Shown: positions 1 to 9,411 of the stretch, piece by piece
How positions within the stretch are numbered: the stretch's first letter is position 1
Layout of the letters: each line of letters begins with the position of its first letter
Source of the DNA: an uncultured Burkholderiales bacterium
GTDB lineage: Bacteria; Pseudomonadota; Gammaproteobacteria; Burkholderiales; Burkholderiaceae_E
Direction of reading: 5' to 3'
Assembly: GCA_903903975.1 (NCBI GenBank)
Contig: CAIVAS010000145.1
Coordinates: 1-37,684, forward strand
Length of the DNA stretch: 37,684 nucleotides
Notes under the pieces: model-generated
Database searches by the model: none
Told to the model about the DNA's origin: nothing
What the model saw: the letters and a program-made list of their open reading frames with translations, nothing else
Program-made: the position numbers and the translations under genes

Positions 1-1427
1 AGGCTGGGGGTGTCGGGAGGCAGGGGCGCGCGCAGCAGCAGGACCCCGGCGATCAGTTTGAGGAGGCAGGGCAGCAGAGCATAGATGGCCGACAGGGCGA
101 GGGTGCCGGAGCTTGATGACACCGCGGGAAGCGTTGCCGAGAGCGCCTGCGATCCGGCGGCAGCCGCCGCTGAGGCGGTCGCTGCCTTGGCAGACAACTC
201 GCCCGGGAGGTAGCCCAGGATCTCGAGCAGCGGCAGGGCCAGGCCGGCGGCGGCAGCCAGATTGACTTTGGTGGCCAGGTTCCAGATGCCGAAGAGGCTG
301 CCTTCACTGTCGCGCGGCGCATCGTCGGCCGCCAGGATCGTCGCCAGGATGGCCGGTGGCATGGCCAGATCGGCGCCCAGCGCCAGGCCGGTCATCAGGC
401 AGATCACCCCGAAGGCCAGCGTGTCGCCCGCGCCCAGCCCGAAGGCCCATCCGAATGCCGCAATCGAGACCGCCATGCCGGCCAGCCAGGCCCGGCGCAG
501 ACCGAGTCGTCGGGCGATGCGCACCCACAGCGGCATCCCGACGGCGGCCGCCAGAAAATAGAGGATCAGGAACATCGGTGCCTGGCCGGGGGCCTGCAGG
601 ATGTCGGCCACGAAGAACAGCACCAGGGTGGCCGGAATCGCGCTGGCAATGCCGTTGGCAAGAAAGGCCGCAAGCATCCAGCGAAACGGGCGATGGCCGG
701 CAACCTGCCGCCAGTTGGCGGCGATGCTGGCGATCAGCGACCTGGCGGGCTCGGCGGGGTCGCGCTCGTCATGAATTGCGGTGGTGTGGGCTTGGATACG
801 AGAGCTGCCGGCCGGCAGCATCCCGGCCGACGCTGCCGGCATCGCAGGTAAGGGCGAGCCGGTCGCCGGCAGGGGCGCGCGCATGATCGCCAGCGCCCCG
901 ATTGCCGCAGTCACGAAAAAGAGCGCCACCAGCCAGCCGGCGCGTTCGGGCACCAGCAGACTTGCCGACAGCAGGACGCCGGCCAGACCGGCCGCTTCGC
1001 GGGTGGCGGTGACGCGAACCCGTTCGATCGGCCCGCTGCCCAGCCCCGCGCCCCAGGTCTGGTAGGCGATCGAGACCACCGAATAGGCCAGATAGGTGGC
1101 AATCGAGGCCAGCGCGAGCCAGGCGACCACCGGGACGCCTGGTGGCGGCAGGAAAACCGCGGCATAGCCGAGCGCCAGCACCGGCAGCCCGAAGAGGATC
1201 CAGCGGCGGCAGGTTTGCGGCTCGCGTTGCCGATCGAGCAGCGTGCCGATCGCCGGATCGGCGACCGCATCCACCGCGCGGGTAAAGAACAACACTGCGC
1301 CGACCGTGGCGAGGCTCAGCCCGAGTTGGTCGGCATAAAAGGCGGGCAGCAGAACGAAGAGCGGTAACTCGAGCAGCGCCAGCGGCGCGCGCAAAAGTCC
1401 GTAGGCGAGGTAATCGCCCCGGGTCAC
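1..1427 (-). CDS. GPH/MFS-type sugar:cation symporter-like transporter (3' end cut by window)
   Basis: An inner-membrane transporter of the major facilitator superfamily, most like the glycoside-pentoside-hexuronide:cation symporters. The frame starts at a GTG that overlaps the stop of the upstream gene (GTGA), so the two are translationally coupled. It stays open for about 475 codons to the window edge; the family is usually 430-480 residues, so little is missing. The protein begins V-TRGDYLAYGLLRAPLALL and carries the repeated hydrophobic helices and the conserved early segment FFTRAVDAVADPAIGTLLDR, the GPH-type cytoplasmic loop with its Asp residues. The substrate is unknown. As last gene of a lipid-modification operon it could move a lipid precursor or product rather than a sugar; that is inference. 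Confidence 0.85.
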   Translation of the reverse strand, partial: MTRGDYLAYGLLRAPLALLELPLFVLLPAFYADQLGLSLATVGAVLFFTRAVDAVADPAIGTLLDRQREPQTCRRWILFGLPVLALGYAAVFLPPPGVPVVAWLALASIATYLAYSVVSIAYQTWGAGLGSGPIERVRVTATREAAGLAGVLLSASLLVPERAGWLVALFFVTAAIGALAIMRAPLPATGSPLPAMPAASAGMLPAGSSRIQAHTTAIHDERDPAEPARSLIASIAANWRQVAGHRPFRWMLAAFLANGIASAIPATLVLFFVADILQAPGQAPMFLILYFLAAAVGMPLWVRIARRLGLRRAWLAGMAVSIAAFGWAFGLGAGDTLAFGVICLMTGLALGADLAMPPAILATILAADDAPRDSEGSLFGIWNLATKVNLAAAAGLALPLLEILGYLPGELSAKAATASAAAAAGSQALSATLPAVSSSSGTLALSAIYALLPCLLKLIAGVLLLRAPLPPDTPS

Positions 1428-2023
1428 CGCCCCGACCCCGAGGCGACGCCCGCGCCACGCAGCAGCGATGCGCGCAGAGACGGCGCTGCCGTGCGTTCGT
1501 CGAGCCAGATCAGAAAGAAGGCCGAGGCGAAATCGGCATCGTCGATCCTGCCGATCGGTTTGTCGTTATGAAAAAAAGCCACGCCCCGCTTCGGCTCGAG
1601 AATGCCGGTGAGCCGATCGTCGGCGGCGATATTGGGCATCAGCCGCTTCAGTTCGCTCAGCCACCGGCTGCGACTAGGCGCATCGCCAAAGCCGAGCTTT
1701 TCGATTTCCTGCAGGCTGCGCTCGGCGATGGCCTCGCCTTTCAGGCCGGTGGCATAGCGCAAATCGAGCGCCAGCGGCTGGCTGGTCGGCTGATCGGTGC
1801 GCACGCCGGCGGCGCCGGTCCAGAGCTGGGCGCTGTAGATCTTCAGGCCCAGCCAGCGCATGACGCCTTCGCCCGACAGGCGCGCATCCGGCAGTTCGGC
1901 CCTGATCGGCGTCGGCACGATGTCGGCCCGGCTTGGCGACCACGGCGCGAGCAGGCTCAGGGTCAGCAAGGCGGCGCCCAGGAAGCGGGCGCCGCCTGGC
2001 TTGCGTGGCGCGGGTGATGACAC
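1424..2023 (-). CDS. Secreted chalcone-isomerase-like domain protein
   Basis: A 199-residue exported protein. An N-terminal signal peptide (hydrophobic core GAALLTLSLLAPW, cleavage likely after SRA near residue 34) precedes a bacterial chalcone-isomerase-like domain with the typical LRYATGLKGEAIAERSLQEI and YSAQLW stretches. Proteins of this family recur beside cyclopropane-synthase-like methyltransferases, DUF1365 and FAD-oxidoreductase genes in Proteobacteria; no plant-type isomerase activity should be assumed. The start is a GTG three bases after the stop of the methyltransferase gene, and its stop overlaps the transporter start. It probably handles or binds a lipid in the periplasm (inference). 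Confidence 0.85.
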   Translation of the reverse strand: MSSPAPRKPGGARFLGAALLTLSLLAPWSPSRADIVPTPIRAELPDARLSGEGVMRWLGLKIYSAQLWTGAAGVRTDQPTSQPLALDLRYATGLKGEAIAERSLQEIEKLGFGDAPSRSRWLSELKRLMPNIAADDRLTGILEPKRGVAFFHNDKPIGRIDDADFASAFFLIWLDERTAAPSLRASLLRGAGVASGSGR

Positions 2024-2026
2024 GGC

Positions 2027-3325
2027 TCAGCGCTCCCGGCGCAGCGTGAACTGCACCACGTCGGTCGAGCGCTGCGCGAAGCCGGCTTCGCAGTAGGCAA
2101 GGTAGAACTCCCAGGTGCGCGCGAAGCGCGCATCGAAGCCCTGCGCGGTGATCTGCGGCAGCGACTCGAGGAAGCTGTCGCGCCAGATCGCGAGCGTGCG
2201 GGCATAGTCGAGGCCGAAGCCGAAGGCGTCGTCGACGGCCAGTCCGGCCGATCGGGCCTGGTGCGAGAACACCTCGGGCGAGGGCAGCATGCCGCCCGGA
2301 AAAATGTATTGCTGGATGAAGTCGGTGCCGCGGCGATACCGCTCAAAGAGGGTGTCGTCGATGGTGATGGTCTGCACGACTGCCCGCCCGCCGGGTCGAA
2401 GGCAGCGCTGCAGCGTCTCGAAATAGCTCGGCCAATAACGCTCACCGACCGCTTCGAACATCTCGATCGACACGATCGCATCGAACTGCCCCTTCTCGTC
2501 GCGGTAGTCCTGTAACAGGAAGCGTGCCTGCTCGGCCAGGCCGGCATTGGCCAGGCGCCGTGTGGCCCAGGCATGCTGCTCGGTCGAGAGGGTCAGGCCG
2601 GTGACATGCAGGCCATCGCGGGCGGCGAGTTCGGCAAATCCGCCCCAGCCGCAACCGATCTCGAGCACCCGGGCACCGGGCGCCAGCGCGAGCTGATCGA
2701 GGATGCGTCGATACTTGGCGGTCTGGGCGTCCTGCAGCGAGCGGGCCGGTTCGTTGCCAAAGAGCGCGCTCGAATAGGTCATGCTCGGGTCGAGCCAGAC
2801 CGCATAGAAGGGATTGCCCAGGTCATAGTGCGCATGGATGTTTCGGCGCGACCCGGCTTTGCTGTTTCGGTTGAGCAGGTGCTTGATGCGGTAGAGCGCC
2901 TGACCCCACCAGTGCCCATAGATGGCCCGTTCGATGACTTCACGGTTGGCGACCAGCACCTTGAGCAGCGCCGGCAATGAGTCGGTCTGCCAGTCGCCGC
3001 TGATCCAGCTCTCGGCAAAGCCGATATCGCCGCGCGACAGCGAGGCGCCGAAGACCTTCCAGTTGGAGAGCCGGATCGCGGCATGCGGCTCGCCGTGTCC
3101 GAAGCTGAGCGAGGCACCCGCAGGCGTTGTCACCAGCAGTCGGCCGACCTGCAGCCGTTCGAGCAGCGAGAGGATGGCGTGCGCTGCGGCAGGCGGGTGC
3201 TCGGCAGCGAGCACCGCCGCCAGGCCGGTCCGGGCTTCGCGCTCGAGCAGCGGCGAGGCAGCAGGATTCATGAGTGCGGTGGACTCTCGATCGAGCATCG
3301 AGCGTCCGGGCGCAGAACGGTTCAT
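2027..3325 (-). CDS. Cyclopropane-fatty-acyl-phospholipid synthase-like SAM methyltransferase
   Basis: A 432-residue SAM-dependent enzyme of the CFA synthase family, which adds a methylene or methyl group to unsaturated acyl chains of membrane phospholipids. Visible motifs: HYDLGN (about 166-171), the SAM-binding loop VLEIGCGWGG (220-229), EMFEAVG (288-294) and the lipid-site stretch QQYIFPGGMLPSP (338-350). I place the start at the ATG at 3325, which overlaps the DUF1365 stop as ATGA; a longer frame upstream runs into that gene and is unlikely. From memory, homologues in Rhodobacter-type singlet-oxygen regulons take part in making methylated or furan-containing fatty acids, so the product need not be a simple cyclopropane ring. 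Confidence 0.93.
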   Translation of the reverse strand: MNRSAPGRSMLDRESTALMNPAASPLLEREARTGLAAVLAAEHPPAAAHAILSLLERLQVGRLLVTTPAGASLSFGHGEPHAAIRLSNWKVFGASLSRGDIGFAESWISGDWQTDSLPALLKVLVANREVIERAIYGHWWGQALYRIKHLLNRNSKAGSRRNIHAHYDLGNPFYAVWLDPSMTYSSALFGNEPARSLQDAQTAKYRRILDQLALAPGARVLEIGCGWGGFAELAARDGLHVTGLTLSTEQHAWATRRLANAGLAEQARFLLQDYRDEKGQFDAIVSIEMFEAVGERYWPSYFETLQRCLRPGGRAVVQTITIDDTLFERYRRGTDFIQQYIFPGGMLPSPEVFSHQARSAGLAVDDAFGFGLDYARTLAIWRDSFLESLPQITAQGFDARFARTWEFYLAYCEAGFAQRSTDVVQFTLRRER

Positions 3326-4167
3326 GGAAGGCCTCTGGAAACGAAAGCTTCTGGGGGTTCGGGTTTGCGGTGAAACGGTACGCGGGCCAGCCACAGGCGC
3401 AGTGCCTGAAGATGAATCCGGGTGATGACGCCGATCGTGAAAAACGGCTGTCCGACGATCGCCCGCCGCACTGTAGCGCGACTCGCTGCCACCATGGCAC
3501 CGCTGAAGCTGGTCAGCAGCAGCGGCCCCTCTTCGTCGTGATAGTCGATGCGGGCGAGCGCCCGGTCGGCGCGGTTGAAAAAGCGGAAGGTGTAGCTGCC
3601 GGTGACGCTGCAGAACGGCGATACATGGAAGACCTTGGTGGCCTGCATCGCCCGACCCTGCGAGAGCGGGGCGCCATCGGGTTGTGACAGCAGATAGCAG
3701 TGCCGCTCGTTGAAGGTGTTGTTCACCTCGGCGATCACCGTGACCAGCTCGCCGTCGGCGCGGTGACAGAACCAGAAACTGACCGGCTTGAAGGCATAGC
3801 CCAGCATGCGCGGGAAGGTGTGCAGCCAGATCGGGCCGTCGGCGTTCACGCCAGCCTCCCGGCAGCGGCTGCGGATCCAGTCCTCAAGCGGCGTGTGGCC
3901 GTCGCCATGATCGGCGGCATGAAACGAGATCGGTGCGCGGCGTTCGAAACCGAACCAGCGGCCCAGCCCTTGCGCGGCGCGGACGGCGAAGTCGCCGTCG
4001 ATGCGCAGGCGCATGAAAAAGCCCGGATAGCTGAAGGCGTGGTGGACCGGGCGCAGCCGCACATGGCGGATCGGCCCGAAGCCGAGTTGCAGCGGCGCGC
4101 CCTCGAGCGCCACGCGCTGCGGGGCAGTCAGCGTGTCGGGGGCGAGTGCAGTCTGCGGGGCCGGCAT
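3322..4167 (-). CDS. DUF1365 family protein
   Basis: A protein of about 281 residues of the DUF1365 family, almost always found next to a CFA-synthase-like gene and an FAD-dependent oxidoreductase. Family features seen are RPVHHAFSYPGFFMRLR near the N-terminus, the central FWFCHRADGELVTVIAEVNN block, and KVFHVSPFCSVTGSYTFRF. The biochemical role is not established; a lipid-related role is inferred from context. I choose the ATG at 4167 (MPAPQTALAP) because the frame upstream of it is built from a short tandem repeat and has no family similarity. The stop overlaps the methyltransferase start. Confidence 0.88.
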   Translation of the reverse strand: MPAPQTALAPDTLTAPQRVALEGAPLQLGFGPIRHVRLRPVHHAFSYPGFFMRLRIDGDFAVRAAQGLGRWFGFERRAPISFHAADHGDGHTPLEDWIRSRCREAGVNADGPIWLHTFPRMLGYAFKPVSFWFCHRADGELVTVIAEVNNTFNERHCYLLSQPDGAPLSQGRAMQATKVFHVSPFCSVTGSYTFRFFNRADRALARIDYHDEEGPLLLTSFSGAMVAASRATVRRAIVGQPFFTIGVITRIHLQALRLWLARVPFHRKPEPPEAFVSRGLP

Positions 4168-4200
4168 ATCAGTCAGTGGGAGGCAGTCAGTCGATTGCAG

Positions 4201-4242
4201 TCGGATGGTCGCGATCGGATGGTCACAATCAGGTGGTCGCAA
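4201..4242. repeat. Three tandem 14-bp degenerate repeats
   Basis: The 75-base spacer between the FAD oxidoreductase stop and the DUF1365 start ends with three consecutive 14-base units: TCGGATGGTCGCGA, TCGGATGGTCACAA and TCAGGTGGTCGCAA. They run directly into the TCA that is the complement of the oxidoreductase stop. A GCAGTCAGT-rich stretch at about 4167-4200 is also weakly repetitive. This is the only real gap in an otherwise overlapping operon. Confidence 0.75.
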
Positions 4243-5607
4243 TCATGCGGCTGCGGCCAGCGAATCGTCGACACCGCGCTGCGTATGGCTGTCGCTGCCC
4301 GACTCGCCGATGTCGAGCAGGGCGCTGGCCACCGCCAGTCCGGATTTCAGCCCGTCTTCATGGAATCCGTAGCCGGTCCAGGCGCCGGCAAACCAGGTGT
4401 TGCGAACGCCCTGGACCTCGCCCAGGCGACGTTGCGCGGCCATCGCGCCGAGGTCGAACACCGGATGGGCATAGTCGAAGGTCTGCAGGGTGAGCGACTC
4501 GCGCGGTGGCACCAGCGGGTTGAGCGTGACCATCACCGGCTGTGTGAACGGCAGGGGCTGCAGGCGGTTGAGCCAGTAGGTCACTGCAACCGAAGACCGG
4601 TCGTCCGCAGCGCCCGGGCCCTCATCCGGCCCGGCACCAAAGCGCCCCCGGCTGAGGTAGTTCCAGGCCGCCCACGCCCGGCGCCGCTTCGGCATCAGGG
4701 CCAGGTCGGTATGCAGCCAGGCGCGGTTGGGCTGGTAGGGCACCGCGCTCAGGATGGCGCGCTCGTCGTCGCTGGCCTGGTCGAGCAGGGCGAGCGACTG
4801 GTCGCTGTGGCAGGCCAGCACCACATGATCGAAGCTCTCGCGGCCGTGATCGGTGACCACCGTGACCCGGCGCCTGCCGGTGGCGTCCAGATCGCGCTCG
4901 ACACGTCTGACCGGCGTGGCGCGGCGCACGTCGGTCAGCCTGGCCAGGATGCGCTCGACATACTGGCGGGCGCCGCCCTGCACCGTGAACCAGCGCGGCC
5001 GGTCGGCAATCTGCAGCAGACCGTGGTTGTCGCAAAAGCGCGCGAAACTGCCCACCGGAAAGGCCAGCATCGCCTTGGTCGGGCATGACCAGATCGCTGC
5101 GGCCATTGGCAGCAGATAGCCGTTGCGAAACGGTGCGCCATAGTGGTTGGCGACCAGCCACTCGCCCAGCGGCACGGCCGCCTCGGCTGACTGCGCCCGG
5201 TCGCGGGCGAGTGCTGTGGCCTGACGGTTGAACCGCATCAGGTCCGACAACATCGACCAGAAGCGTGGCGACAGCGCGTTCGAGGGTTGCGCAAAGAGCG
5301 ACGCCAGGTCGCTGCCGCACCACTCGAAGTCATGCGGCCCGACCGAGACCGAAAACGACATGTCGGAGTGGGCGGTCGGCACGCCGAGCGTCTCGAAGAG
5401 CGCGATCAGGTGAGGATAGGTGCGCTCGTTGAAAACCAGAAAACCGGTATCGACCGGATAGGTGATGCCGCCGACAGTGGCATCGACGGTATTGGTATGG
5501 CCGCCGACATAGTCGGCCGCCTCGTAGAGCGTGACCCGATGCCGCGCGGCCAGCCGGTGGGCGGTGGCCAGACCGGCGATGCCGCCGCCGACGATTGCGA
5601 TTTTCAT
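4243..5607 (-). CDS. FAD/NAD(P)-binding amine-oxidase-like oxidoreductase
   Basis: A 454-residue flavoprotein of the NAD(P)-binding/amine oxidase (phytoene-desaturase-like) fold. It opens with the dinucleotide-binding motif AIVGGGIAGLATAHRLA (residues 4-20), followed by the acidic YEAADYVGGHTNT stretch that contacts the ribose and flavin. A C-terminal FAD contact is seen in TWFAGAWTGYGFHEDGLKSG. It probably oxidises or desaturates an acyl chain together with the downstream methyltransferase (inference from conserved clustering with DUF1365 and CFA-like genes). It starts 7 bases after the peroxidase stop, so it is almost certainly on the same transcript. Confidence 0.92.
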   Translation of the reverse strand: MKIAIVGGGIAGLATAHRLAARHRVTLYEAADYVGGHTNTVDATVGGITYPVDTGFLVFNERTYPHLIALFETLGVPTAHSDMSFSVSVGPHDFEWCGSDLASLFAQPSNALSPRFWSMLSDLMRFNRQATALARDRAQSAEAAVPLGEWLVANHYGAPFRNGYLLPMAAAIWSCPTKAMLAFPVGSFARFCDNHGLLQIADRPRWFTVQGGARQYVERILARLTDVRRATPVRRVERDLDATGRRRVTVVTDHGRESFDHVVLACHSDQSLALLDQASDDERAILSAVPYQPNRAWLHTDLALMPKRRRAWAAWNYLSRGRFGAGPDEGPGAADDRSSVAVTYWLNRLQPLPFTQPVMVTLNPLVPPRESLTLQTFDYAHPVFDLGAMAAQRRLGEVQGVRNTWFAGAWTGYGFHEDGLKSGLAVASALLDIGESGSDSHTQRGVDDSLAAAA

Positions 5608-5614
5608 GCGGGCA

Positions 5615-6289
5615 TCACCGTGCGAGCGACTGTTCGATGTCTCGGGTCAGTCGGGCATCGAGCGGCTCGACCGCGGTCGGATAGCTCGCGATCAGCTTGC
5701 CGTCGCGCCCGATCAGGTACTTGTGGAAGTTCCATTTCGGCGCCGATCCGCCGTCGCGCGCGAGTGCGACGAAGAAAGGGTCGGCTTTCGGGCCGGACAC
5801 GACGGTCTTTGAAAACATCGGGAACTCGACGCCATAGGTGTTAAAGCAGAAGTCGGCGATCTGCTTGGCGTTGTCGGGTTCCTGCTGGCCGAAGTCGTTC
5901 GACGGAAAGCCCAGCACCACGAAGCCTCGGGCCCGGTATCGCCGATAGAGCGCCTCAAGGCCTTTGTACTGGGGCGTGTAGCCGCAATAGCTCGCGGTAT
6001 TGACCACTAGCGTGACCTGGCCGGCGTACTGGCACAGCCGCTGGGGTACATCGTCCTGCAGGCGCAGGGCGGTGCGATCGAGCAGGGTCGGGCAGGCGGC
6101 GGGGGCGGCGGGGGCGGCGGGCGTCACGCCGGCGGTCGCCGCGATCCGCACGGGTCCAGGCTGACCGGCTGTCGCGTCATCGCCGGCGAACGCCGATTTG
6201 TCCAGGACAAATGAACTCGCGACGAGCAGCGAAAACACAATTGCCGAACCGCAGCGCGACTTGTCGAGAAGATTGTTAAATTCGAACAA
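5615..6289 (-). CDS. Exported glutathione/thioredoxin peroxidase (GPx family)
   Basis: A 224-residue Cys-type glutathione peroxidase that reduces hydroperoxides, including lipid hydroperoxides. The active site is complete: VVNTASYCGYTPQYKGL (peroxidatic Cys about 102), FPSNDFGQQEP (Gln about 135) and KWNFHKYLIG (Trp186, Asn187); Cys148 in DFCFNTYG may be the resolving Cys. A hydrophobic segment at 15-29 ending KSAFAG suggests export, and a long Ala/Pro-rich linker follows. The start is a TTG with an AGGA about 8 bases upstream; a GTG at 6238 is the alternative but would lose the basic n-region. It is the first gene of the operon, and palindromic box 1 lies inside its signal-peptide codons. 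Confidence 0.9.
   Translation of the reverse strand: MFEFNNLLDKSRCGSAIVFSLLVASSFVLDKSAFAGDDATAGQPGPVRIAATAGVTPAAPAAPAACPTLLDRTALRLQDDVPQRLCQYAGQVTLVVNTASYCGYTPQYKGLEALYRRYRARGFVVLGFPSNDFGQQEPDNAKQIADFCFNTYGVEFPMFSKTVVSGPKADPFFVALARDGGSAPKWNFHKYLIGRDGKLIASYPTAVEPLDARLTRDIEQSLAR
6196..6212. promoter_or_regulatory. Palindromic operator box 1 (inside gpx)
   Basis: ATTTGTCCAGGACAAAT: two perfect 8-base arms around a single A, in the signal-peptide codons of the peroxidase gene. The core recurs at 6293 and 6358 and I did not find it elsewhere in the window. It is a likely binding site for the divergent MerR/cobalamin regulator (inference). Confidence 0.7.
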
Positions 6290-6292
6290 CGG

Positions 6293-6307
6293 TTTGTCCT
6301 GGCCAAA
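6293..6307. promoter_or_regulatory. Palindromic operator box 2 (between the divergent genes)
   Basis: TTTGTCCTGGCCAAA: the same dyad with one mismatch. It lies about 10-25 bases downstream of the expected gpx transcription start, over the gpx ribosome-binding site, and overlaps the -35 region proposed for the regulator gene. Its centre is 96 bases from box 1. Confidence 0.7.
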
Positions 6308-6329
6308 TAGAAATCGTCAGTCTTATACT
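6300..6329 (+). promoter_or_regulatory. Promoter of the MerR regulator gene
   Basis: TATACT (6324-6329, five of six consensus bases) is preceded by TGGCCA with an 18-base spacer. The -10 overlaps the -10 of the divergent promoter, so the two could not fire freely at once. The -35 overlaps box 2, which suggests autoregulation. Confidence 0.45.
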
Positions 6330-6353
6330 AAGTGTCGGAGCCGGCTCGGTCAA
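6325..6353 (-). promoter_or_regulatory. Promoter of the gpx-lipid operon
   Basis: Read on the minus strand, TTGACC (6353-6348) and TAGTAT (6330-6325) are separated by 17 bases, which fits a sigma-70 promoter. The start would be near 6318, giving a leader of about 29 bases that contains box 2. Confidence 0.6.
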
Positions 6354-6357
6354 TGAA

Positions 6358-6368
6358 TGTCCAGGACA
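6358..6368. promoter_or_regulatory. Palindromic operator box 3 (upstream of the regulator start)
   Basis: TGTCCAGGACA is a perfect 11-base palindrome and is followed by AC, giving a partial match to the longer box. It sits just upstream of the gpx -35 element and just before the regulator start codon. Its centre is 63 bases (six helical turns) from box 2. Confidence 0.65.
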
Positions 6369-6379
6369 ACGTGATTTGA

Positions 6380-7342
6380 ATGACTGACCCAAACGCCGTC
6401 GAGGCTGCACCGCGATCGATTGCCGCGGTCGAGCGCGATACCGGCCTGACCAAAGACACGCTGAGAGTCTGGGAGCGCCGTTACGGCTTTCCGAACCCAG
6501 GGCGCGATGCCTTTGGCGAGCGACTCTACCCGATCGATCAGGTTGACAAGCTGCGCGTGCTGCGACGGCTGATGGATGCCGGCCATCGACCCGGCAAGCT
6601 GATCCACCTGCCGATGACTGCACTGATGGTGCTGGGCCGTCAGGAGCGCCAGGGGTCGGCAGCCGCGCCCGCGCACCTCTCGGCAGCCGGGCTCGCTGCC
6701 ACCGATGTCGGCGAATACCTTGCCCTGATCTACTCGCGCCAACCCGAAGCGCTGCGCCGCTCGCTCGCGCAGTCCCTGCTTCGACTGGGCCTCGAGCGTT
6801 TTGTGTTCGATGTCGCGGCGCCGCTGACCGGCCTGATCGGTGAGGTCTGGTCGCGCGGCGAGCTCGAAATCTTCGACGAGCGCCTGAGCGTCGAGTCGCT
6901 GCAAACCGTCATGCGCGGCGCCCTGGCCTCGATCAGCTCGTCCGGCGCGCCGCCCACCGTCATGCTCACCACTATCCCCGGCGAACCCCATGGCCTGGGC
7001 CTGCTGATGGCCGAATCCCTGTTGTCATTGCAGGGCTGTCGCTGCCTGTCGCTCGGCGTGCAGACGCCGCTGTGGGATGCGGTGCTGGCAGCCAGGGCGC
7101 ATCGCGCCGATGTGCTCGCGCTGTCGTTTTCGAGCGCTCTCAACGCCGCGCAGGTGATCGACTCACTGACCGAGTTGCGCGAAAAGCTGCCTGCCTCAAC
7201 CCGGATCTGGGCGGGCGGCGACAGTCCGGCGCTTCGCCGTAATCGTCTGGACGGCGTCGAGGTGCTGACCGGTCTGCACGACATTTCGCCGCAGGTCGCC
7301 CGCTGGCGACTCACCATGAGTAGCGAACGACAAACGAATTGA
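6380..7342 (+). CDS. MerR-family regulator with cobalamin-binding domain (LitR/CarH type)
   Basis: A 320-residue regulator. The N-terminal MerR winged helix is clear (IAAVERDTGLTKDTLRVWER, residues 14-33, then RRYGFPNP). A helical cap and a B12-binding Rossmann domain follow, with ExHxxG at 202-207 (EPHGLG; His204 would be the lower axial Co ligand). In CarH/LitR photoreceptors the cap has Wx9EH; here Trp157 is followed nine residues later by Glu167-Arg168, so the motif reads Wx9ER. Such proteins typically repress in the dark with adenosylcobalamin bound and let go on illumination. It is divergent from the gpx-lipid operon and probably controls it and itself. The ribosome-binding site is weak (AGGA about 13 bases upstream, overlapping box 3). 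Confidence 0.9.
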   Translation: MTDPNAVEAAPRSIAAVERDTGLTKDTLRVWERRYGFPNPGRDAFGERLYPIDQVDKLRVLRRLMDAGHRPGKLIHLPMTALMVLGRQERQGSAAAPAHLSAAGLAATDVGEYLALIYSRQPEALRRSLAQSLLRLGLERFVFDVAAPLTGLIGEVWSRGELEIFDERLSVESLQTVMRGALASISSSGAPPTVMLTTIPGEPHGLGLLMAESLLSLQGCRCLSLGVQTPLWDAVLAARAHRADVLALSFSSALNAAQVIDSLTELREKLPASTRIWAGGDSPALRRNRLDGVEVLTGLHDISPQVARWRLTMSSERQTN

Positions 7343-8072
7343 AGAAGATCCGGTTGGCATAATCATCCGGCGTATTCGGGTTGTATCCCCCGAAAAACAT
7401 TCTCAATCCCGCATCCAGTGATTTCCCGTCGCCAAGCGACTTTCGCAACCCAATGAAAATATCAAACAGCCCGTCAAGGAGCACATTGCCGTCGATGCTC
7501 GGCAGAAAGTCCGATCGGGTGAAGAGGCTGTAGCCGTTTCCAATCGCTTTGCTGGCTTCAATATTGAAGGTCGGCAGGGCGATCAGATTGGTGCTGACAA
7601 ACGAGCTGGTCGGGCTCGACAGTCCGATCCTTGCGTAGCGAACGATCAGCGATCCGCCGGCCCTCAGATAGCTGTCGCCGGCGCCTGATTCGAAGACCGG
7701 ATAATTGGCGGTGAATCTCAGGGTTGGAAACTGGTAGCTCAATGTTGCCGGATCGCCCGCATGGAATACCTGGCCCTGATAATTCAGATTATTCGTCAGC
7801 ACCCCCGAATAATTCAGATTCAGCGGCTGGAAGACTACGCCGTAGTTCCAGTCATTCTGTTTGGTGGTCCAGTATTCGACCCTGACATCTGCGCCGCTCT
7901 TTTTCCATCCCGCAGTGGCATTGCCCTGGTTGTAGCCGTGAATCTCCATGTTCTGGGTGGTGATCACGCCGGCCTCGATTTCGAAGCGACTGGTTCGCTC
8001 CTGAGCACAGGCCGGATTGAACGTCAGCAACAGCAGCGTTGCGGCCAGAACGATCGAGTAAATGTCGGTCAT
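7311..8072 (-). CDS. Outer-membrane beta-barrel-like protein, function unknown
   Basis: About 253 residues. I choose the ATG at 8072 because a good signal peptide starts there (MTDIYSIVLAATLLLLTFNP, cleavage likely at ACA-QE). The mature part shows alternating polar/hydrophobic strands rich in Tyr, Phe, Gly and Asn and ends VVRYSW, the terminal aromatic expected of a Bam-assembled barrel. I do not recognise a specific family. The gene is visibly less GC-rich than its neighbours, so horizontal acquisition is possible. Its last 32 bases overlap the end of the convergent MerR regulator gene. Confidence 0.72.
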   Translation of the reverse strand: MTDIYSIVLAATLLLLTFNPACAQERTSRFEIEAGVITTQNMEIHGYNQGNATAGWKKSGADVRVEYWTTKQNDWNYGVVFQPLNLNYSGVLTNNLNYQGQVFHAGDPATLSYQFPTLRFTANYPVFESGAGDSYLRAGGSLIVRYARIGLSSPTSSFVSTNLIALPTFNIEASKAIGNGYSLFTRSDFLPSIDGNVLLDGLFDIFIGLRKSLGDGKSLDAGLRMFFGGYNPNTPDDYANRIFFNSFVVRYSW

Positions 8073-8190
8073 GGCAAGACGATCGCTTTGATGAAGATGG
8101 CCGGATGGGATCGACGGGTTGGCGCTCGTCAAAGTCGTGCAGCCTGCGGCAGTTGGTTCAGGAGCTTGCGTAAGAGGCGTGCATCAGTGC

Positions 8191-9411
8191 TCAGGCATCG
8201 ACGGCGGCCGGACCGGTAAACAGCGCCAGCACGCCGGTATAGCCATAGAGCCGGTGATCGGCGATCTCGCCGTTGGCGAAAAACCCCACCAGCGGAAACT
8301 CGCCGAGCTGCGCCTGCAGCAGGCCGACTTCCACCGAGCCCGACCCGAAGAGTGCCCGGCCGCGTGCAACGCAGGACACATAGATTGCGCCGCGTATTTC
8401 CAGCGAATCGGTTTCGAGTTCTTCGCGCAGTTCGGTGCAGATGCGCATCAGATCGGCACGGGCCGCCTGCGCATCGCGCGTGCAGAAGACCGCCCGGTCG
8501 CCTTCCTGCGGTACGGCGGCCACCGCCAGCAGCCGGTTGTGCGGATCGATGCCCACCAGATTGCGAACGACATAGTCGCCAAAGCCCGGACGCGGGCCGC
8601 GCGGCGGTGCGTCGCCGTCGGCCAGTCCCACCAGCAGACCGTTGCGCACCCGCTCGGCCGGCAGCGCGCGCAGCAGGGTCTCGCCGTCTCTGCTGGCCCG
8701 CGCGGCCTCCGAGACACCGAGGTCGGCCAGCAGCACGTCCAGTGCCGGGCGACCATCGAGCGTGCGGATCAGGTTGGACTGGCAGGCCGAGATTACATGC
8801 TCACCCGCCAGCGGGCGGCAGCCCTGGGTCACCCGCATGCGCAGGTCGACTTCGGACGAAAACACCACGCCCGACAGGCCGCCTGAGAGCACCTGATTGG
8901 CGACCTGGACGAGCGGCTCGGCCCGCCCGCTTGCGCTGCCGCCAAACATCATGCCGCCGCCGACCTTGCCGGCCATATCGCCGACCAGTTCGGCCAGGTC
9001 GGGCGTGGCCGGATCGGCATGGATCAGCGCGGCCTGGGCGGCCACCGCGCCACTGTGGGTGCGCTCGCCCGCCGCGGGCGGTGGTGTCGCCCCGGAAAAG
9101 ACGCTGAAGCTGTCGTCGGGCAGATCGAGCAGCATGATGGCGATCGCCGGTTCGCTGTCGTATTCGACACCGGTCGAGACGATGGCATGGCCGCAGGTGC
9201 CGGCCCAGTCGCGCACGCCGGTGCGTTCTTCGAGCAGCGCGACGATGTCGCGGGTGTGCGGGGCGTACTCGGCGCTCAGATAGACCACGCCCAGATTGGC
9301 ATCCTTGGCCCAGCCGGGCTGGTTGATCCGGCCTTCGACCTGGGCCAGCGCCAGTTCGGTGGCCATGCGCCAGTTGGGATGGGTGGCATGGCCATACCGA
9401 AAGCGCGTCAT
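8191..9411 (-). CDS. FIST-domain sensor protein (FIST_N plus FIST_C)
   Basis: A 406-residue soluble protein of the FIST family, a putative small-ligand sensory module found alone or fused to signalling domains. The N-terminal half has the family stretches NLGVVYLSAEYAPHTRDIVA and WAGTCGHAIVSTGVEYD; the C-terminal half has GDYVVRNLVGIDPHNRLLAV and the closing FANGEIADHRLYGYTGVLAL. There is no attached kinase, methyl-accepting or cyclic-di-GMP domain, so it would need a partner. The start ATG overlaps the stop of the PhaM-like gene (ATGA), implying coupled translation. Confidence 0.88.
   Translation of the reverse strand: MTRFRYGHATHPNWRMATELALAQVEGRINQPGWAKDANLGVVYLSAEYAPHTRDIVALLEERTGVRDWAGTCGHAIVSTGVEYDSEPAIAIMLLDLPDDSFSVFSGATPPPAAGERTHSGAVAAQAALIHADPATPDLAELVGDMAGKVGGGMMFGGSASGRAEPLVQVANQVLSGGLSGVVFSSEVDLRMRVTQGCRPLAGEHVISACQSNLIRTLDGRPALDVLLADLGVSEAARASRDGETLLRALPAERVRNGLLVGLADGDAPPRGPRPGFGDYVVRNLVGIDPHNRLLAVAAVPQEGDRAVFCTRDAQAARADLMRICTELREELETDSLEIRGAIYVSCVARGRALFGSGSVEVGLLQAQLGEFPLVGFFANGEIADHRLYGYTGVLALFTGPAAVDA

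Follow-up and report, generated by a model that had tools for sequence, protein, structure and literature searches.

What does an uncultured lake bacterium of the order Burkholderiales make with a gene cluster that runs divergently from a CarH-like, B12-binding regulator, and how is that cluster switched? The locus lies at the start of contig CAIVAS010000145.1 (assembly GCA_903903975.1), which we analysed over its full 37,684 nucleotides (the window); this is one entire contig, C145, of a source genome assembled into 270 contigs totalling 3.95 Mb. It holds homologues of the three enzymes of a published furan fatty acid pathway, headed by an exported glutathione peroxidase (GPx), and palindromic sites paired around the promoter that accompany the regulator in related genomes. 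Taken as a whole, these features are best explained by a furan-fatty-acid operon under a cobalamin-dependent dark repressor, a reading to which we give a probability of roughly 0.6. Judging by homology, the gene set probably yields furan fats with a light-protective role and also disposes of lipid peroxides.

Gene content and layout of the locus

Pfam recognizes GSHPx, Amino_oxidase, DUF1365, CMAS, Chalcone_3 and MFS_2 domains on the minus strand and, divergent from this operon on the plus strand, one protein that joins MerR_1 and B12-binding domains:

6380..7342, plus strand: CarH-like regulator, 320 amino acids, with a MerR DNA-binding domain, a four-helix bundle and a B12-binding domain (Pfam, NCBIfam, PDB sequence matches, model and fold search, residue tally)
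5615..6289, minus strand: exported GPx, first gene, 224 amino acids, TTG start, likely signal peptide (GSHPx and motifs)
4243..5607, minus strand: UfaD-like FAD-dependent desaturase (Amino_oxidase; gene order UfaD-UfaO-UfaM; published role)
3322..4167, minus strand: UfaO-like DUF1365 protein, start ATG at 4167 (DUF1365; published role)
2027..3325, minus strand: UfaM-like methylase of the cyclopropane fatty acid (CFA) synthase family, with Q for Cfa H266 and S for C139 (CMAS; alignment to E. coli Cfa)
1424..2023, minus strand: chalcone-isomerase-like (CHI-like) protein (Chalcone_3)
3..1427, minus strand: GPH-type major facilitator superfamily (MFS) transporter, truncated at its 3' end by the contig boundary (MFS_2)

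The initial annotation had named all of these operon families (FAD enzyme, DUF1365, CFA-like, chalcone-isomerase-like, GPx and GPH-type transporter), and Pfam finds each of them. Its description of nearly all junctions as overlapping needs correction: two of the five overlap, by four bases each (DUF1365/CFA and CHI/MFS), and three are gaps, of 7 (GPx/FAD), 75 (FAD/DUF1365) and 3 bases (CFA/CHI). The GPx protein carries the motifs NTASYCGYT, FPSNDFGQQE and WNFHK.

In Rhodobacter sphaeroides, UfaM together with the NAD/FAD-binding desaturase UfaD and the DUF1365 protein UfaO is enough to produce a monomethyl furan fatty acid, and the Rhodopseudomonas palustris homologues do likewise (PMC7380195). 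All three enzyme families are present together in the window operon (Pfam, compared with the published trio), and this match of the core genes to ufaD-ufaO-ufaM bears out the lipid-modification unit proposed in the initial annotation. With enzyme activities assigned by homology, the unit is probably a furan-fatty-acid operon.

Recurrence in Burkholderiales

A profile built from 11 regulators matched 126 of the 399 genomes of the order at E ≤1e-40, the source genome included. Neighbourhoods were taken from 80 of the other 125 positive genomes, chosen non-randomly, down ranked lists; some of the sampled loci (cited by L numbers) are near-identical (L155 to L021, L146 to L028, and L164 to L080). 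Linkage was counted on the 72 of these 80 loci with at least 7 kb upstream, the eight shorter ones being left out. The ufaD-ufaO-ufaM trio is divergent from the regulator in 52 of the 72, runs in the same direction in 2, and does neither in 18; it is also divergent in 15 of 20 named relatives, some of the remaining five being cut by contig ends. Because the divergent trio recurs to this extent in both sets, the gene arrangement is not a product of chance, and many of these Burkholderiales carry the cluster.

In the 52 divergent loci, the trio is accompanied by genes for GPx (23), CHI-like (44), MFS (46), DUF3833 (47), short-chain dehydrogenase/reductase (SDR, 47), SnoaL (44) and ferritin-like proteins (27), the GPx and DUF3833 counts being possibly too low, with both families found only via L019 and L014 queries. 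The initial annotation had proposed a neighbourhood survey for the peroxidase and the transporter, and their presence at these frequencies makes both recurrent parts of the operon.

Of 101 loci, 30 carry a FolE2-like GTP cyclohydrolase gene, in many cases with GPx or the regulator on one side and ufaD on the other (L023:7272-8153, identified by Pfam on L023; others include L067, L068, L075, L100, L101 and L114). A GTP cyclohydrolase also occurs within the Pseudomonas light regulon (PMC9758184).

Paired operators around the promoter

Three copies of the palindrome TTGTCCWGGACAA, each with ≤1 mismatch, start at 6198, 6294 and 6357 in the window, and two of them flank the likely operon promoter:

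6357..6369: operator 1, ATGTCCAGGACAA, in the interval from the -35 region to the regulator start
6325..6353, minus strand: likely operon sigma-70 promoter, TTGACC-N17-TAGTAT or TTGACC-N20-TATAAG
6294..6306: operator 2, TTGTCCTGGCCAA, four bases ahead of the GPx start and 63 bp from operator 1
6198..6210: third palindrome, TTGTCCAGGACAA, within the part of GPx that encodes the signal peptide; shared by L010, L011 and L013

The GPx TTG start, four bases past operator 2, is identical in L010, L011 and L013, and the stretch between the paired operators conserves TTGAC together with a block rich in T and A, resembling a sigma-70 promoter. Across 100 regulator-upstream regions (L012 left out), a search allowing ≤3 mismatches returned 169 matches to the palindrome versus 7.6 expected, and pairs of sites 62-65 bp apart occurred in 56 of the 100 regions versus 0.02 expected. 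With the distance limit removed, 56 of 101 pair distances still fell at 62-65 bp, 31 of them at 63 and 18 at 64.

Nine regions have the operator pair and no divergent trio: L023, L089, L090 and L102 contain no trio within ~9 kb upstream, the contigs of L010, L029, L087 and L096 end too soon for one to be visible, and in L126 the trio lies further off. The regulator and operator pair of L087, L089, L090 and L102 lie upstream of a different CFA-like gene, one with H266 intact, with the trio not in view (L087 is cut by a contig end), and the regulator may control other lipid genes there.

Within one family, f49, a co-occurrence test covered 28 loci with GPx or ufaD; the regulator is in view in 14 and out of view in the other 14. 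The operator pair was present in 8 of the first 14 loci and in none of the second 14 (Fisher p 0.002), and any operator site in 12 of 14 versus 3 of 14 (Fisher p 0.002), p values that are optimistic because some of the 28 loci are close relatives. The distribution of the pair indicates that the operator site goes with the regulator. In the whole source genome (both strands, ≤1 mismatch), there were 86 palindrome matches versus 57 for a reversed control, and the five zero-mismatch palindromes outside the locus all lay within mechanically predicted open frames, of which two are short and may not be real genes; we claim no wider regulon for the palindrome.

The regulator and its cobalamin site

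The closest solved relatives of the regulator are Thermus CarH chains (PDB sequence matches, E 2.2e-24 and 2.6e-24). A fold search with an AlphaFold model built from 11 sequences (mean pLDDT 83.8, pTM 0.63) also placed CarH chains on top, with target-normalised TM-scores of ~0.8 for cobalamin-domain chains. Sequence and model agree that the window protein has the MerR domain, the helix bundle and the Rossmann cobalamin domain, the last scoring 31.5 bits in Pfam, just below the 32.1 cut-off; the lower-ligand motif ExHxxG is kept, as GEPHGLG. The cobalamin photoreceptor-type class assigned in the initial annotation is supported in its fold, that of CarH, and in most of the cobalamin-site residues. 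A cobalamin adenosyltransferase is encoded in the source genome.

Residues were tallied over 101 regulator homologues, 72 of them linked to the trio. In the linked set, W131, E141, E175, G180 and the GxxxP residues are invariant (72/72), H177 is kept in 71 and H142 in 68; in the full set, H142 is kept in 94, and the window has Wx9ER instead of Wx9EH. The light signature described for CarH-type proteins (GxxW, EH, GxxH and GxxxP; PMC11796333) is complete in 90 of the 101, the window regulator holding three of its four parts. Light sensing is plausible for the regulator family and less certain for the window's own clade.

Several observations weigh against a cobalamin-dependent dark repressor that light releases. 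The curated NCBIfam CarH model NF052513 gives the window regulator 111.6 bits versus a cut-off of 400. H132, the bis-His light ligand, occurs in none of the 101 homologues (it is S in the window clade), H142 is replaced by R in the window, L010-L013, L130 and L145, and the H132A variant of Thermus CarH (TtCarH) fails to monomerise in light (PMC11796333). Because H132 is absent, light cannot put the regulator into the bis-His state known from Thermus CarH. The operator pair is missing from 23 of 70 trio-linked regions, no operator site at all is found in the linked regions of L028, L129 and L131, and the f49 statistics are optimistic, as noted above.

The likeliest alternative is a regulator that responds, in the dark, to redox state or to the supply of cobalamin instead of to light; H132S and H142R would then leave the lower ligand in place and abolish the light switch. 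The universal absence of H132 and the R at H142 in the window and the loci just listed point in this direction, but CtMerR carries R at the H132 position and is nevertheless light-responsive (PMC11796333), the four-part light signature is kept in 90 homologues, the putative role of the operon is photo-oxidative, and the Pseudomonas counterpart is induced by light (PMC9758184). We consider this alternative unlikely, though with a real chance of being correct.

A second alternative is a regulator that has become independent of cobalamin and relies on a separate light-sensing partner, by analogy with the short LOV protein that serves class II LitR. Pseudomonas provides a precedent (PMC9758184), the pocket is altered in the window clade, and the source genome has a second MerR gene, with no recognised sensor domain, beside a photolyase-related gene. 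Against this, the window retains ExHxxG, all linked homologues except one retain H177, and a look at the locus, which did not extend to the rest of the genome, showed no LOV gene. We hold this second alternative to be improbable. The second MerR gene (L002, C99:34450-37881) is divergent to the photolyase-related (DPRP) gene, in a layout like that of LitR loci.

The methylase and its predicted product

C139, E239, H266 and Y317 are bicarbonate ligands of Cfa. When the 72 copies of the operon CFA homologue were aligned to E. coli Cfa, E239 and Y317 were kept in every copy and the H266 position was Q in every copy, while the C139 position was S in 57, A in 14 and C in 1. H266 is intact in each of six further CFA-like proteins encoded at the sampled loci. 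No second full-length CMAS protein was found in the source genome, which therefore offers no paralogue for comparison.

Two points on the enzyme side belong with the contrary observations above. The match to the R. sphaeroides Ufa proteins is one of enzyme families and published roles. The change at C139 is no mark of the operon CFA homologues; since five of the six other CFA-like proteins also lack this residue, only H266Q marks the operon form. The Q at this position fits a methylase that closes no cyclopropane ring. That the operon makes ordinary cyclopropane fatty acids, as the best family matches of the CFA homologue (Cfa models) and the lack of another full-length CMAS protein might suggest, has very little probability given the Q in all 72 copies and the linkage to UfaD and UfaO homologues.

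A conserved RNA structure in related genomes

In 13 of the 20 named relatives, the region directly upstream of ufaD holds a conserved element, for example:

L021:7973-8082, minus strand: 110-nt RNA element of Azohydromonas sediminis SYSU G00088 (NZ_QOAZ01000013.1, about 40365-40474, minus strand)

It is also present in L014-L020, L022, L024, L025, L027 and L028, and in L026, where it stays by the regulator and the operon is absent. The element folds as a three-way junction with a C-rich hairpin loop, CTCCTCC(T)CCCTCCC, and its helices covary, with double changes in 12 of 25 pairs among 13 sequences and in 23 of 25 among 51 distinct sequences. In the alignment of 51, 93.5% of cells are paired versus 37-45% when slid, a figure favoured by the fitting of that alignment to the covariation model. 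The model matches 214 of the 299 genomes of family f49; a search with it found no match in the source genome, and the element lies outside the window.

Among 40 places with the RNA, chosen non-randomly down a ranked list, ufaD follows within 600 bases in 26. The motif GGAACT-N17-TC occurs within 130 bases upstream of the RNA in 26 of the 40, and with N18 in 7 more, versus 0.2% in shuffled pieces. Rfam returned nothing at gathering score in eight loci carrying the element and, at E ≤1 in five further loci, a single match outside it (L184:837-885); no published family was tied to the element in the literature searched. We read it as a putative small RNA or leader behind a sigma-E-like promoter. 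Some f49 loci carry the RNA with neither regulator nor operator pair in view (L168, L170 and L174-L177, with GPx and ufaD; L169 and L180-L182, with ufaD), and a change of regulator is possible in these.

Proposed mechanism

Under the furan-fatty-acid reading, UfaM would methylate an unsaturated phospholipid acyl chain, UfaD would add a second double bond to the methylated chain, and UfaO would insert oxygen and close the furan ring. The furan product would quench singlet oxygen and the exported GPx would clear lipid peroxides, with the transporter, CHI-like, DUF3833, SDR, SnoaL and ferritin-like proteins serving as accessories. In the dark, the regulator with adenosylcobalamin would sit as a dimer of dimers on both palindromes flanking the promoter, at a spacing of 63-64 bp or six helical turns, covering the upstream promoter edge and the message start and also lowering expression of its own gene; light would break the Co-C bond and free the promoter. 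The constant spacing of six turns suggests looping, with one tetramer bridging both sites. The regulator is most likely a repressor, and the dark-repressor reading is supported by the similar two-site layout and the light induction of ufaM in Pseudomonas.

More tentatively, cobalamin regulators without bis-His ligation may repress photo-oxidative lipid operons across Burkholderiales, each spanning a pair of palindromes set six turns from one another around the promoter, with light chemistry unlike that of Thermus CarH, and in part of the order a sigma-E-like promoter driving the C-rich-loop RNA upstream of ufaD may be present additionally or instead; we hold this generalization to be possible but rather doubtful. 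If true, it would join furan fatty acids, as singlet-oxygen scavengers, with cobalamin photoreceptors, which in the literature consulted are tied mainly to carotenoid production. The operator sequence and the named relatives are now at hand for testing this lipid-photoreceptor link, and the homologues without H132 form a natural series for how cobalamin photoreceptors might switch minus bis-His ligation.

The contig edge and flanking genes

The initial annotation had the transporter ending the transcript, but the transporter frame stops at the contig edge. In L011, whose regulator is 87% identical to that of the window, genes for a DUF3833 lipoprotein, an SDR, a SnoaL-like and a ferritin-like protein follow the transporter on the same strand of one contig. 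The corresponding genes of the source genome sit on contig C232 (Pfam: DUF3833, adh_short and SnoaL_2; the ferritin-like one scores above the cut-off for FA_desaturase_2 and below that for AurF). We therefore reject the transporter as the end of the operon, since L011 and C232 both carry further genes. The first 601 window bases overlap C232 at 94.0% identity, so C232 may be another strain's copy in a mixed assembly.

Downstream of the regulator, a 273-amino-acid open frame without a Pfam match (window 7311-8132, minus strand) meets the regulator's 3' end tail to tail with a 32-base overlap, and a FIST/FIST_C gene (window 8191-9411, minus strand) lies beside it.

Comparison with known systems

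Most of the biology is already known, because the trio matches ufaD-ufaO-ufaM under both RpoE-ChrR and class II LitR. The initial annotation had assigned the enzymes to a known conserved group under such control, in agreement with PMC5507510 and PMC9758184. It overstated the novelty of the combination: the core regulon, the Shewanella GPx and LitR control of ufaM are all described in published papers.

The core RpoE-ChrR regulon comprises an SDR, a lipoprotein, UfaO, UfaD, UfaM and phrB (PMC5507510), and the Ufa enzymes appear with the SDR and lipoprotein in this regulon in PMC3818230 as well. R. sphaeroides and R. palustris share the three core families with the window and have SDR and lipoprotein homologues in the same regulon (PMC7380195, PMC5507510); the R. 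palustris locus tags RPA2571-2569 run UfaD-UfaO-UfaM, as in the window. Control in that system lies with an extracytoplasmic function (ECF) sigma factor and ChrR, whereas the window has a local MerR/B12 regulator. The RpoE-ChrR motif TGATC-N17-19-CGTA was not found in the window promoter region, and the two ChrR matches in the source genome (20.9 and 19.8 bits) are both below the 124.5 cut-off, on which grounds we reject RpoE-ChrR control there. In Shewanella, a periplasmic GPx (PgpD) belongs to the RpoE2-ChrR regulon with a cfa/phrB operon, so that, as proposed for the window, one oxidative-stress regulator governs both (PMC4336711); the Shewanella GPx and cfa/phrB are in separate operons, whereas in the window GPx heads the shared cluster.

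The Pseudomonas class II LitR cluster (PmlR/PplR; phrB, SDR, FAD enzyme and ufaM) resembles the window in having a MerR-family LitR/CarH regulator by ufaM and two sites around the promoter. That cluster is light-induced, ufaM rising 25-33 fold, and PmlR2, a repressor in vitro, binds Site 1 over the -35 and Site 2 between the start site and the start codon (PMC9758184). Class II LitR differs in lacking a full B12 domain, in its TGTACA-N12-TGTACA site and in its LOV partner; the window regulator has a B12 domain and TTGTCCWGGACAA, and no TGTACA occurs in the window promoter sequence.

Thermus thermophilus CarH shares with the window regulator its fold, its MerR, helix-bundle and cobalamin domains, ExHxxG, W131 and E141, and differs in having H132 and H142, both replaced in the window clade (H132 in all homologues). 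Thermus CarH controls carotenoid genes and acts on one compact operator, whereas the window regulator adjoins a lipid operon and has two palindromes six turns apart; the Thermus CarH structure PDB 5c8e holds 26-bp DNA.

A B12-domain regulator on this operon, the TTGTCCWGGACAA operator and the long, GPx-first gene order were not found in the literature searched, which did not reach most subscription papers. Set against these systems, the gene set is mostly known, and what looks new is the regulator variant with its altered cobalamin pocket (no H132, and Wx9ER in the window clade), the paired palindromes around the promoter that go with the regulator, the Q at the H266 position of the operon CFA homologues, the covarying RNA upstream of ufaD in relatives, and the divergent CarH-like layout of Burkholderiales.

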